Assembly: GCA_022822375.1 (NCBI GenBank)
Contig: JAJEBU010000058.1
Coordinates: 1 to 41,375 of the forward strand
From: Dehalococcoidia bacterium
Lineage (GTDB): Bacteria; Chloroflexota; Dehalococcoidia; Bin125
Reading direction: 5' to 3'
Length of the DNA stretch: 41,375 nt
Position numbers and translations under genes: made by a program. Within the stretch, counting starts at the first letter, position 1, and the number at the start of each line of letters is the position of its first letter. The notes below the pieces were generated by a model that did no database searches, had not been told where the DNA came from, and worked only from the letters and a program-made list of their open reading frames with translations. This document shows positions 28,405 through 32,477 of this stretch, one piece after another.

Positions 28405-28869
28405 ATGCCGACCAAGGAACTCTTTGGACGCTACCTCGATGAGTTTGTGGTGGGCGAGGTGATCGAGCATTGGCCGACGCGGACGGTGACTGAAGCCGAT
28501 GACCTGCTCTTCTGCATGCTGACGATGAATCATCACCCGCTGCACACGAACAAGGAGTTCGCCGAAGACACGCAGTTCGGCCAGCGAATCGTCTCCGGGC
28601 CGTTCGTCTACTCGCTGGTCTTTGGCATCACGGTGCCCACGGTGTCGGGCAAGGCCATTGCCAATCTGGCCACGACCGATCTGCGTCACACGGCGCCCGT
28701 CTTCCACGGCGACACGATTTCCGTGCAGACGGAGGTGCTCGAAGTGCGCGAGAGCAAGAGCCAGCCCGACCGCGGCATCGTCACCGTGCACACCACCGGC
28801 GCAAACCAGGATGGCACCGAGGTCATCTCATTCCATCGAGCGGTGATGATCCCCAAACGCCCCGACTGA
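28405..28869 (+). CDS. MaoC-like (R)-hydratase
   Basis: 154-residue hot-dog-fold enoyl-CoA hydratase. Features: FVVGEVIEHWPTRTVTEADD, MLTMNHHPLHTNKEFAE, FGQRIVSGPFVYSLV, FHGDTISVQTEVLEVRESKS. The form MNxHPLHxN rather than GDxNPLHxD is that of the mesaconyl/itaconyl-CoA hydratase-like subgroup. It lies just downstream of the acyl-CoA dehydrogenase in the same orientation with GAAGGGA upstream. The exact substrate is open. Confidence 0.88.
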   Translation: MPTKELFGRYLDEFVVGEVIEHWPTRTVTEADDLLFCMLTMNHHPLHTNKEFAEDTQFGQRIVSGPFVYSLVFGITVPTVSGKAIANLATTDLRHTAPVFHGDTISVQTEVLEVRESKSQPDRGIVTVHTTGANQDGTEVISFHRAVMIPKRPD

Positions 28870-28894
28870 TCGGGCTGCTCTGACTGATCTGGGT

Positions 28895-29668
28895 TCAGAT
28901 GCCGGAGATGGCCAGGATCTGCCACTGGGCCTCGCGCCGACCGACCAGGGCCAGCGCCTGCTCGCGTAGGCCCCCGCGCTGCACGGAGAAGGTCACGTTC
29001 GCGCCCGAGTATCCGCAGTTGACGACGACGGCTGAGCCCGGCGGAGCGTCCAGCTGATCGTCTCCGGCCGAACGCATCGCGGCTGCCATCTCGGCCGCTG
29101 AGTCTATCTGCATGACGACGCCCGGCGGACCGACGAGGGTGAACGGATAGGCCAGATTCGCCGCGTATGCATCGACATCGCGGGCATCGAGCAGTTGCAG
29201 CGCGGATTCGACCGCCACGCGAGCCGCCTCTGCTTGCGCGCTGAAGTCGGCGCCGGCCTCGAAACTGTCGGTCTTCAGCTGGGCTTGCAGCCGCCAGCTG
29301 CCATCGACGCGGACGGCCGCATAGACAATGCGGTTGGCGGCGATTGCTCGACCGTCGGCGTCGAACCGCGTCCATCCGCCGGCGATGTGCGCCTTGACGT
29401 CGGACGCCTGCACAATCGTCGGCGGAGCCGACTCGCTGCGGGCCCAACCGCTGGCGGACAGGTCGTCCCAGATCGGCGCAGCGGTGTACTCCGCGACGTT
29501 GTGGAAGATGCGAGTCGCCGGCCGCCAATGCACCGTTTCCTCAGGATCAGCGGCCGAGATCCGCGCATGCGGCCAAGCATTGACGCCCGCCCAGCCGGCA
29601 GCATCCCGACGGTTGAAGGTGTCGAGAAAGTCGAAGTACACGGCTTCGGGGGAGTCATACGTGGTCAT
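28895..29668 (-). CDS. Double NTF2/SnoaL-like protein, paralogue C
   Basis: 257 residues, the third member of a local family with the genes at 30950 and 31725. The first half runs from AVYFDFLDTFNRRDAAGW through IVQASDVKAHIAGGWTRFD and IAANRIVYAAVRVDGSWRLQA; the second from QLLDARDVDAYAANLAYPFT to the C-terminal WQILAISG. Each half has the helix-then-beta-sheet pattern of the NTF2/SnoaL fold, a cone-shaped pocket that binds small molecules. It has drifted more than A and B (AGGWTRFDADG versus AGGWTRYRADG). Unknown function; no catalytic signature that I can name. It is convergent with the MaoC gene. Confidence 0.7.
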   Translation of the reverse strand: MTTYDSPEAVYFDFLDTFNRRDAAGWAGVNAWPHARISAADPEETVHWRPATRIFHNVAEYTAAPIWDDLSASGWARSESAPPTIVQASDVKAHIAGGWTRFDADGRAIAANRIVYAAVRVDGSWRLQAQLKTDSFEAGADFSAQAEAARVAVESALQLLDARDVDAYAANLAYPFTLVGPPGVVMQIDSAAEMAAAMRSAGDDQLDAPPGSAVVVNCGYSGANVTFSVQRGGLREQALALVGRREAQWQILAISGI

Positions 29669-29753
29669 GGAGTCAGCAGGCTAGCACGGGTAGTACACCA
29701 GTGCTATCGTCTTGAGAGCCAGCGATGTCGAGAACCGGTACGGATGCAAGCAC

Positions 29754-30179
29754 ATGGCGGTCGCGACAAGAGCAGAGATGATCGAATCCACCGTCGCGCT
29801 TGCTCAACGGATGGGCTTCGCTGTTGAAACTCATCAACGGATCGGCACCAGAGTGTGGGGGACGCCCAGGGTGATCGATGTGGTACTTGGCCGTCGCGGC
29901 GGCGGGAAGCGTTTTGGCATCGAATGCCGCTTCGACTCTGGGTGCGGCATTGAGGCGGAGCGGGCGATGATGCTCGCCGCGGACCTGAGCGATTGGCCGC
30001 TGGACGGCGTGATCGCCGTCGCTGGAGCAGGATTCGATCGATACATGGGACTCTTGCGAACGGGCGGCAGGGTCATCCGACTTGATGAACTGAGAGAGTT
30101 GTTGCCGCTGTACATGCAGGATGGAGCGACTGAATCAGGTACTCCCGGACGGGGCCGCGGCCGCTGGCCCGCGAATTGA
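29754..30179 (+). CDS. PD-(D/E)XK nuclease-like protein next to a Dam methylase
   Basis: 141 residues from an ATG at 29754 (a TTG at 29712 is in frame but weak). It resembles the small PD-(D/E)XK proteins that accompany D12-class methylases: TPRVIDVVLG (D42), then KRFGIECRFDSG (E57, with R59 where the motif ExK has Lys), DLSDWPLDGVIAVAG and a helical end LDELRELLPLY. The Lys-to-Arg change raises doubt about cleavage activity. It converges with the methylase and its 3' end overlaps it by 107 bases. The rest of the C-terminus (TPGRGRGRWPAN) lies within the overlap. Restriction function is inferred from context. Confidence 0.65.
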   Translation: MAVATRAEMIESTVALAQRMGFAVETHQRIGTRVWGTPRVIDVVLGRRGGGKRFGIECRFDSGCGIEAERAMMLAADLSDWPLDGVIAVAGAGFDRYMGLLRTGGRVIRLDELRELLPLYMQDGATESGTPGRGRGRWPAN

Positions 30180-30957
30180 TCGAACGCGGCGCTTCGACCT
30201 CGTCCAGATGGAATGCATCTGACTGGTAGAGCTCCGTGATGTCAGGGTGAGCCGAGTTTGAGAGCGCGACGGATGCGCCGTCGGCGATCAACTGCGCAGC
30301 CGCGTCGGCCAGACGCCGCTGTTCGGGCATGCCGAAGTCGGATGCGGTGTAACTGGTGAAGTTGGATGTCGTGCTGAGCGGCACATATGGCGGATCGAAG
30401 TAGACGAAGTCGCCCCGCTGCGCTCGGCTCGGCGCCGTGCCGAAGTCCGCGACGCGCAGCTCGACGCCCTGCAGCGCCTCGGACGCGGCGCGCAGATTCT
30501 CTTCGTCGCAGATTGTCGGGTTCGCATATCGCCCATGCGGGACGTTGAAGCGTCCCTGGCTGTTGACTCGGTAGAGGCCGTTGAAGCAGGTTTTGTTGAG
30601 GAAGATCAGGTTGGCCGCGCCGCCGAGACTGCAAGTCAGACGCTTCCCGCGGATGTTGTAGAAGTACTCGGCCCGGTCGTCCGCAGCGCGGTATCTGCGT
30701 TGGTGGACGCTGAGCGCTCGGATCAGCGCGTCGACGTTGTCGCGGACCTGCGTGTAGGCGTTGATCAGTTCGCGGTTGAGGTCGGAGAGCACGGCTCGCT
30801 GGAATCGCCCTTCGGCCTGGAGCGCGAAGAAGAGCGCTCCGCCGCCGAGAAACGGCTCGTAGTAGGTGTTGATCTGTGCAGGGGCGAGCTCGAGCAGTTG
30901 CCGGAGGAGAGACGTCTTGCCGCCGGCCCACTTCAGGAACGGGCGCGCTCTAGACAT
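30073..30957 (-). CDS. Dam-family DNA adenine N6-methyltransferase (D12 class)
   Basis: 294-residue class-alpha adenine methyltransferase. SAM-binding FLKWAGGKTSLL (residues 7-18), EPFLGGGALFFAL (34-46), the target-recognition part NKTCFNGLYRVNSQG (121-135), and catalytic motif IV DPPY (188-191) are all present. Relatives (Dam, DpnM) methylate GATC, but the recognition site here is not proven. Its ATG overlaps the stop of paralogue B by eight bases, so it is translated from the same mRNA as the NTF2-like pair. About 20 residues beyond the usual family end (EYLIQ) come from the stretch overlapping the convergent nuclease gene. Confidence 0.93.
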   Translation of the reverse strand: MSRARPFLKWAGGKTSLLRQLLELAPAQINTYYEPFLGGGALFFALQAEGRFQRAVLSDLNRELINAYTQVRDNVDALIRALSVHQRRYRAADDRAEYFYNIRGKRLTCSLGGAANLIFLNKTCFNGLYRVNSQGRFNVPHGRYANPTICDEENLRAASEALQGVELRVADFGTAPSRAQRGDFVYFDPPYVPLSTTSNFTSYTASDFGMPEQRRLADAAAQLIADGASVALSNSAHPDITELYQSDAFHLDEVEAPRSINSRASGRGPVREYLIQSLHPACTAATTLSVHQVG

Positions 30958-31708
30958 CGTTGCGCACCGCCGAGACGCCGGACGTTGCCCAGACGCCGTC
31001 GCGTTCGACGACCAGGAAGCACTGCTCGAAGGTGTCGCCGCCGCGCGAGATGTGCTGTTCGATCAACACGCCGCGCGGTCCAACGGCAACGACGGACGCC
31101 TGCTGCTCAACCGGCTGGGCGAGCGACACCCAGGGGCCGTAGTCGCGTTCGGCATCGGCCCGAGTCTGCATCACCTCGATCCCGCCCGGCGCCAGGATCA
31201 GCGCGGCCGGATAGTGGAAGCAGTCGAGCCACGACTGCACGTCGCCAGAGGACAGCGTGGACATGGTGCGCTCCAGCACCGCCATGGCGGCGGCAGCCGG
31301 TGCCGCGGCCGCGGCGCCCGTGAGCGCGCCCTCGACGCCGAAGGCTGCCTGGATCCCCCAGCCGCCATCGATCTCGGTGGCGATGTAGAGCAGGCGGTTA
31401 TGTGAGATTGCCGAGCCGTCGGCGCGGTGACGGGTCCAGCCGCCGGCGAAGTGCACCTTGTCAGGCGAGCGGTGAACGACGCGGGGCGTGACTGGCTGGG
31501 TGTACGCCCAGCCTTGCTGCAAGACCGGCGTCCAGTTGTCGAGCTGTTCGTACTCGGCTGCGGTGTCGGTGATGATCGGCTCGCTGCGTCCAGCGGCGAC
31601 ACGGACATGCGGGTAGCTCATCGCTTCGGCGCGACCGGCCGCCGACCGGTCGTTGTAGGTCGTGAAGAAACGCCAGTAGGCGGCTTCGGCGGTCTGCGCG
31701 CGGGTCAT
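30950..31708 (-). CDS. Double NTF2/SnoaL-like protein, paralogue B
   Basis: 252 residues from the ATG at 31708. A longer reading up to 32059 runs antiparallel in frame over paralogue A and is rejected. Similar to A throughout: EAAYWRFFTTYNDRSAAGR, MSYPHVRVAAG, TPRVVHRSPDKVHFAGGWTR, HRADGSAISHNRLLY, GGWGIQAAFGVEG; second half LERTMSTLSSGDVQSWLDCF to FLVVERDGVWATSGVSAV. It starts 16 bases after A and overlaps the Dam gene by eight bases. A ligand-binding or small-molecule isomerase role is possible, but no substrate can be named. Confidence 0.75.
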   Translation of the reverse strand: MTRAQTAEAAYWRFFTTYNDRSAAGRAEAMSYPHVRVAAGRSEPIITDTAAEYEQLDNWTPVLQQGWAYTQPVTPRVVHRSPDKVHFAGGWTRHRADGSAISHNRLLYIATEIDGGWGIQAAFGVEGALTGAAAAAPAAAAMAVLERTMSTLSSGDVQSWLDCFHYPAALILAPGGIEVMQTRADAERDYGPWVSLAQPVEQQASVVAVGPRGVLIEQHISRGGDTFEQCFLVVERDGVWATSGVSAVRNDV

Positions 31709-31724
31709 GGCTGTGGTCAACTCT

Positions 31725-32477
31725 CTAGACGGCTGAAACAGCGGCCAGGTGCCACTCATCGCCGTGTTGAACCATGAGGAGGATTTCGTCTCGCTCGACG
31801 CCATTGACTCGGCGTCGGGCTGCGACATTGACGCCGCTCGTTCCTGCGTTGACCACGCTGACCGATCCGGGCACTGCCTCAATTGGCTGCGACGCCGAGA
31901 CGGCCAGGAACTGTTCCGCCGATTCAATCCGATGGACCTCGCCGATGCCGACGATTGTGAGTGGATACCGCAGGCGTTGGGCGAAGGCCTCGAAGTCGCC
32001 GGCGTTGCGCAGCTCGCCGAGCTGCTCGGCAGCGGCGACCGCCGCCTCGCTCGGCGCATCAGCGTTGAAGCTGTCGACGCCGAAGCGGGCCTGGATGCCC
32101 CAGCCCTCGTCCGTCCTCGTCATCACGTAGAGGACACGGTTGGAGAGGATGGCCGACCCGTCGGCGCGGTAGCGGGTCCAGCCGCCGGCGAGGTGCACCT
32201 TCGTCTCCGAGGCGTGTATGACGCGTGGCGTCAGGCCCTGGGTGCGCACCCAGCCGGTCGCCTCAAAGCGTTCCCAGCCGAGCTCTGCTGCCCAGCGGGC
32301 GTAGGCCTGTTGGTCGGAGTAGAGGCCGGCCGTCGTGCGCGGTGTCGGCGACGGCGGCGCGGCTGAGACGCGCACGTGCGGATACGACATCGCGCCCGCC
32401 CAGTGGTCGGGGTCTTTGGCGTTGAAGCCCTCGAAGAACGCCCAGTAGGCGGCGGTCGGAGTGGGGTGTGCACCCAT
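31725..32477 (-). CDS. Double NTF2/SnoaL-like protein, paralogue A
   Basis: 250 residues, first gene of the likely A-B-dam operon. Two consecutive NTF2-like halves: TAAYWAFFEGFNAKDPDHW, MSYPHVRVSAA, TPRVIHASETKVHLAGGWTR, YRADGSAILSNRVLYVM and GWGIQARFGVDSF; then ELRNAGDFEAFAQRLRYPLT, GIGEVHRIESAEQFLAV and EILLMVQHGDEWHLAAVSAV. The start ATG is preceded by AAGGA. Resembles stand-alone SnoaL proteins but doubled in one chain. The function is unknown. Confidence 0.75.
   Translation of the reverse strand: MGAHPTPTAAYWAFFEGFNAKDPDHWAGAMSYPHVRVSAAPPSPTPRTTAGLYSDQQAYARWAAELGWERFEATGWVRTQGLTPRVIHASETKVHLAGGWTRYRADGSAILSNRVLYVMTRTDEGWGIQARFGVDSFNADAPSEAAVAAAEQLGELRNAGDFEAFAQRLRYPLTIVGIGEVHRIESAEQFLAVSASQPIEAVPGSVSVVNAGTSGVNVAARRRVNGVERDEILLMVQHGDEWHLAAVSAV

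Follow-up and report, generated by a model that had tools for sequence, protein, structure and literature searches.

A Dam-type methylase and a lysine-less PDDEXK_11-like protein in a Dehalococcoidia genome: a recurring gene pair whose cutting side is probably disarmed

Background

On a 41,375-nucleotide contig of a Dehalococcoidia bacterium (JAJEBU010000058.1; the whole contig is called here the window), a methylase gene and a small nuclease-like gene converge and share their 3' ends. Does such a locus encode a restriction-modification system, does the shared stretch serve to balance the two genes, and is the nuclease, which carries an arginine where a catalytic lysine is expected, still able to cut DNA? 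The window, with a G+C content of 66%, is contig 73 of a draft genome of 2.7 Mb, 95.6% complete, labelled G000 in the comparisons reported below. A literature search by titles and beginnings of abstracts found nothing on this pair in Dehalococcoidia.

The layout described by a first-pass annotation of the sequence is real: both reading frames are present, their stop codons delimit the overlap, and the arginine, R59, is encoded by CGC at 29928–29930, within GIECRFD, as part of the motif D42...E57-C58-R59. The nuclease-like frame begins at an ATG; an alternative TTG start is possible upstream, at 29712 (+). Features are reported in Table 1.

Table 1. Features of the gene pair, in window coordinates
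Feature	Position	Strand	Basis
PD-(D/E)XK-like protein, 141 aa, lysine-less, R2-like	29754–30179	+	ORF, Pfam, alignment, tree, AlphaFold model
D42 codon, invariant in 49/49 class rows	29877–29879	+	alignment; position counted from sequence
E57-C58-R59 codons (ECR replacing ECK)	29922–29930	+	sequence, alignment
E69 codon, invariant in 49/49 class rows	29958–29960	+	alignment; position counted from sequence
Dam/DpnII-type adenine DNA methylase, 294 aa, DPPY at residues 188–191	30073–30957	-	TIGR00571, PDB sequence match
Tail-to-tail overlap, 107 bp; conserved domains meet at about 30127	30073–30179	both	ORF stops, locus comparison
Block replaced relative to G007: nuclease gene and part coding for methylase residues 217–294	29687–30306		blastn comparison; flanks 87–92% identical

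Results

The two proteins

The methylase belongs to the Dam family: it scores 262.9 bits against TIGR00571, where the cut-off is 114.85, and matches Pfam MethyltransfD12 with an E value of 2.1e-58. Its best PDB match is M.DpnII (2dpm, E 2.6e-65), followed by E. coli Dam. The motifs looked for in the methylase of a Type II system are intact, EPFLGGG being found at residues 34–40 in addition to DPPY; the enzyme is probably active, and its kinship with M.DpnII suggests GATC as the target. GATC counts, considered as a mark of live restriction, speak neither for nor against it, nor for a target common to nuclease and methylase, as two estimates point in opposite directions: the window contains 389 sites versus a mean of 310 by dinucleotide shuffle, an excess, while the trinucleotide-based estimate is 0.92. 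CTAG is under-represented in 15 of 15 genus and class stretches (window, L018–L029, L051–L054), with observed/expected values of 0.06–0.87.

The neighbouring protein matches the family PDDEXK_11 (PF20472) weakly, with 19.9 bits, below the Pfam cut-off of 23.7. Homologues adjoining the same methylase exceed the cut-off, with 74.7 bits for the first copy of G007 and 31.1 bits for that of G014; because the latter passes, the kinship of the window protein to the family is beyond doubt. An AlphaFold model, built from 18 sequences (pLDDT 78, pTM 0.73), predicts the PD-(D/E)XK order of helices and strands, shared with PDDEXK_11, and places D42 and E57/R59 on adjacent strands and E69 on the next helix. 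Its fold matches in PDB are assorted PD-(D/E)XK proteins, of modest Z (best 10.3), including AF1548, Can2, BstEII, Holliday junction resolvases and the small subunit of BspD6I: no function is singled out. In sequence searches of PDB, the window protein found no match up to E 5 and a profile of ten relatives a single, insignificant one (E 0.16); no family was found for it in PHROGs, NCBIfam or PADLOC, and a literature search returned nothing on PDDEXK_11 or PF20472.

A recurring two-gene module

A profile of 16 relatives detected the nuclease in 49 of 393 class genomes, drawn as a sample from a larger group. Near-full-length copies are present at 46 loci, which give 49 rows in the alignment, because three loci carry two copies; G061, G040 and G155 were excluded, the last having only pieces at contig ends. 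In G061 a nuclease gene split over two frames lies beside the methylase (L030, 6019–8823 and 6125–6430, -), and in G040 only a C-terminal fragment does (L063, 3689–3847, +). A Dam methylase is found on the retrieved stretch, at most 2.8 kb away, in 45 of the 46 loci; in G012 the methylase end is at the contig edge.

PF20472 proteins were also found in 14 of 301 sampled phylum genomes, 12 of them outside the class; in 10 of these 12, Dam lies within about 1.5 kb. Viral contigs, scanned with the patterns GIECK(Y/F)Q and G(T/S)(A/V)EEKIP, contain a relative in 46 cases: Dam is present on the retrieved stretch in 11 of them, always on the same strand, and 35 show none. The window protein itself, used as a query against the viral contigs, found no relative, and the first nuclease gene of G007 gave no match among annotated phage proteins. 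By these class, phylum and viral counts, the nuclease and Dam are a recurring two-gene module. The proposal that the pair is of the restriction-modification type is right in kind. Gene pairing exceeds chance; overlap length does not. As for orientation, 38 of the 45 class pairs are convergent and 7 are on the same strand, while beyond the class convergence is seen at none of the 10 loci with Dam.

The overlap

Overlap is found in 30 of the 38 convergent class pairs and spans 4–157 bp, six pairs having one longer than the 107 bp of the window; the other 8 have none. The count includes lysine-less pairs. The conserved domains end at about residue 277 of the methylase and residue 125 of the nuclease, and the overlapping bases are the unconserved C-terminal tails, of 51 and 54 nt. 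Residue 277 was used in place of the window core-to-core figure (56), which is too high, since the methylase used as query aligns with itself as far as its final residue. The reverse frames contain few stop codons, 25 in 830 across the core of the methylase and 4 in 373 across that of the nuclease, so that selection is not required to explain tails this long. The 107-bp overlap is an ordinary one, a by-product of two convergent genes lying tightly against each other in DNA of high G+C content.

The first-pass annotation had suggested that the two mRNAs, pairing across the overlap, limit each other and thus balance the system. The 3' ends do overlap, as they often do in convergent pairs of the class, and a precedent exists: in EcoRI, according to the available part of one report, antisense RNAs begin at reverse promoters, and reverse promoters of Eco29kI have been studied as well (PMC3874152). 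Yet the EcoRI promoters, as the same part of that report describes them, sit inside the endonuclease gene (PMC3874152), while a consensus scan for sites of the sigma-70 type over 28800–31300 found 0 here (shuffle mean 0.3). The single terminator-like site in the same interval is at chance level (shuffle mean 0.9). Overlap length and presence, moreover, are not conserved, and genes lie in the same-strand order in 7 of 45 class loci and in each of the 10 loci with Dam beyond the class. Since rare stop codons suffice to account for the tails, antisense balancing was dropped: mutual silencing finds no support and is very improbable, although transcripts may run across the overlap. Homologues with a standard lysine and no overlap had been named as the observation that would speak against the original proposal: the standard lysine is indeed the rule, as shown below, while the lack of overlap is not.

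The missing lysine

Where a complete nuclease motif would read ExK, the window protein reads ECR. Lys59 is present in 42 of the 49 class rows and, outside the genus of the window, in 13 of 13 rows from the phylum and 46 of 46 from viral contigs, 59 in all (one of the 13, G206, is in the class and also among the 49 class rows). Among the 46 viral rows many barely differ from each other, with 35 distinct stretches of 50. K70 is kept in viral rows because the query patterns force it; Lys59 is unforced in copies reading SLKYQ. D42, G65 and E69 are invariant in the class. In viral copies (loci L150–L195) E57 becomes Ser, with S-L-K or S-A-K in place of E-x-K, and the Glu of the next helix is kept; Lys59 is therefore better kept than E57. 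The first-pass annotation was right to doubt the activity of an ECR nuclease.

Seven class rows are without Lys59. Four are lone copies: the window (ECR), G014 (ECR), G006 (QCR) and G081 (RCR). The other three, in G005 (VCR), G007 (ACM) and G010 (SCM), are the second gene, R2, of a tandem pair, in which the first gene, R1, slightly overlaps R2 and reads ECK in all cases. The window and G014 proteins are 47% identical and have K59R, Q61D and K70R in common. K52 is the only lysine of the window protein; G014 has none at that place, and therefore no shared lysine took over the role.

The six lysine-less genus copies form one group, adjoining the ECK copies of the genus, with a support of 89/89, and of 80/89 when the seven motif columns are masked; when G081 is included, the entire lysine-less set is supported at 72/0. 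The main tree omits G206; masked and leave-out trees omit both G206 and G081. In four of six leave-out trees a single branch still separates the remaining lysine-less copies from the others, at a support of 33 in one tree and, in another, with only the window–G014 pair put to the test; the other two trees break the lysine-less group. The window protein resembles the R2 proteins that follow an ECK gene in three relatives. Because the window and G014 together form a long branch, and because the leave-out trees split four to two, descent of the window gene from the R2 lineage is likely, rather than proven. No second nuclease copy was found in the genomes of the window, G014 and G006; given the completeness of the draft, an R1 gene may have been missed in the window genome.

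As judged by pN (0.37) and pS (0.72) between the window and G014, the nuclease gene has been constrained over much of the time since the two split; the estimate is a rough one, and not telling for the recent past, because synonymous sites are near saturation. Between G007 and G010, R2 evolves faster than R1 (dN 0.22 vs 0.09). A recent transfer of R1 between species, raised by the 86–95% protein identity among the R1 copies of G005, G007 and G010, was rejected, because their DNA identity is only 76–79%, with synonymous sites close to saturation; the high protein identity is no more than conservation. The copy of G081 (L067, 116–667, -), a distant one reading RCRSQ...GSAEEE, scores 51 bits against PDDEXK_11, above the cut-off, and lies on the same strand as a Dam methylase; it may have lost its lysine independently, in a second event.

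One locus with a variable nuclease

The window genome and 14 other members of the genus were searched. In the members compared, the methylase adjoins genes for an acyl-CoA dehydrogenase and a MaoC-like protein, as assigned by Pfam, while the nuclease varies. Only a first-type (ECK) copy is found in G001, G003 and G009 and, within the limits of its short contig, in G012; G005, G007 and G010 have the tandem pair; the window genome, G014 and G006 have a lysine-less copy only. Methylase without nuclease is found in G004, G008, G011 and G013, and G002 has neither gene. The nuclease is cleanly absent from G004, G011 and G013, since similarity on the MaoC side reaches to about 6 bp from the methylase end; in G008 about 275 bp are left. 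Placed on the methylase tree, these states require 8 changes, versus a mean of 8.2 for shuffled labels: they are scattered as if shuffled.

NTF2-like genes, matching Pfam DUF6841 below its cut-off, flank the pair at 28895–29668 and 31725–32477, both on the minus strand; a third similar ORF, seen by eye within 30950–32059 (-), has no Pfam match. The arrangement is common to G007.

By methylase, G007 is the nearest relative of the window genome: residues 3–216 are 95% identical, residues 217–277 only 52%. At the DNA level a stretch including the nuclease gene has no blastn similarity to the R1 and R2 stretch of G007, while the sequences on either side of it are closely similar (Table 1). As judged by this comparison, a sharply bounded block, comprising the nuclease and the methylase C-terminus, has been replaced relative to G007. 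No donor was found: the C-terminal part of the methylase is at most 64% identical to that of any genus member compared. The draft assembly may be chimeric at the block, yet G014 carries a gene of this type at the equivalent position.

Discussion

Comparison with known systems

The locus resembles DpnII/Dam-type systems, in that a Dam-family methylase, closest in PDB to M.DpnII, adjoins a PD-(D/E)XK protein; the neighbour, however, is a small PDDEXK_11-like protein lacking the lysine. With PDDEXK_11 it shares the predicted fold order and the invariant D42, G65 and E69, and its homologues pass the family cut-off, while the protein itself scores below it and is without Lys59. The two adjacent, related genes of G005, G007 and G010 recall the Type IIT heterodimers (BbvCI, BspD6I), of which the window genome, with its one gene of the R2 type, has no counterpart. 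In the known enzymes, as far as the available text of the source goes, there are two different catalytic sites (PMC4081073), whereas R2 is without the motif in all three relatives; engineered nickases with one site are also on record in the available text of this paper and of one on BbvCI (PMC4081073; PMC6326814). Convergent restriction and methylase units are found in C-protein systems such as AhdI and Esp1396I, for which the available part of the source discusses no long tail overlap (PMC5333194).

Explanations for the lysine-less protein

On balance the locus is probably a Dam and PDDEXK_11 restriction-type module, disarmed on its cutting side in the window genome, with the overlap as a by-product. 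The recurring pairing, the genus-wide locus, the lysine loss common to G014, the constraint on sequence and the replaced block lead to the module reading. R1, with its ECK, would be the cutting subunit and the lysine-less R2 its non-cutting partner, so that in tandem-pair relatives the two would dimerise with a single working site. The ECR protein of the window, judging from its sequence, would not cut DNA, yet would fold and probably bind DNA or a partner; being of the R2 type and without R1, it would leave methylation alone. The presence of D42, E57 and E69, kept more fully in the window protein than in R2 of G005, G007 and G010, counts against a disarmed nuclease.

These three acidic residues are the starting point for another explanation, in which they hold the metal while R59 replaces the lysine, perhaps with slow cleavage, and the restriction-modification system works. 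The gene is intact and constrained, and the replacement of E57 in viral relatives means that the family tolerates change in its active site. An active arginine variant is nevertheless unlikely: the lysine is the better-kept residue by the class, phylum and viral counts, Q61 and K70 have changed along with it, and the R2 genes have lost the lysine as well, together with E57. Decay, with a nuclease gene that has no present function and is on its way out, would be in line with the four genus members having the methylase only, with the broken genes of G061 and G040 and with the long terminal branch of the window gene. The reading frame is intact, however, and the divergence from G014, with the same motif changes in both and pN below pS, argues against decay, which is rather unlikely. 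A role outside restriction was also weighed, that of a MutH-like nuclease for Dam-directed mismatch repair. A small PD-(D/E)XK protein adjoins a Dam-type methylase, and the genome has MutL; this MutL carries DQHAAHERVVYE, an endonuclease-type motif. Such a motif in MutL marks bacteria without MutH. The occurrence of relatives in viral contigs and the absence of the gene from several genus members also speak against this role, which is highly unlikely.

The disarmed module may be taken further, although this extension is tentative and itself on the unlikely side. A non-catalytic restriction subunit may have turned into a conserved component: together with an ECK subunit it would make the cutter a nickase, or restrain it, while alone beside Dam it would read methylation or protect against incoming copies of the ECK gene. 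The methylase would stay, and the nuclease module would be swapped along with the methylase C-terminus.

Conclusion

If the disarmed-module explanation is true, the genus has a restriction-type module with a stable methylase and a changeable nuclease, and selection maintains an inactive nuclease subunit. At a single locus, this genus would then offer a natural series of states (intact nuclease, intact plus inactive, inactive alone, none), suited to the study of how methylases become solitary and of what inactive subunits do.
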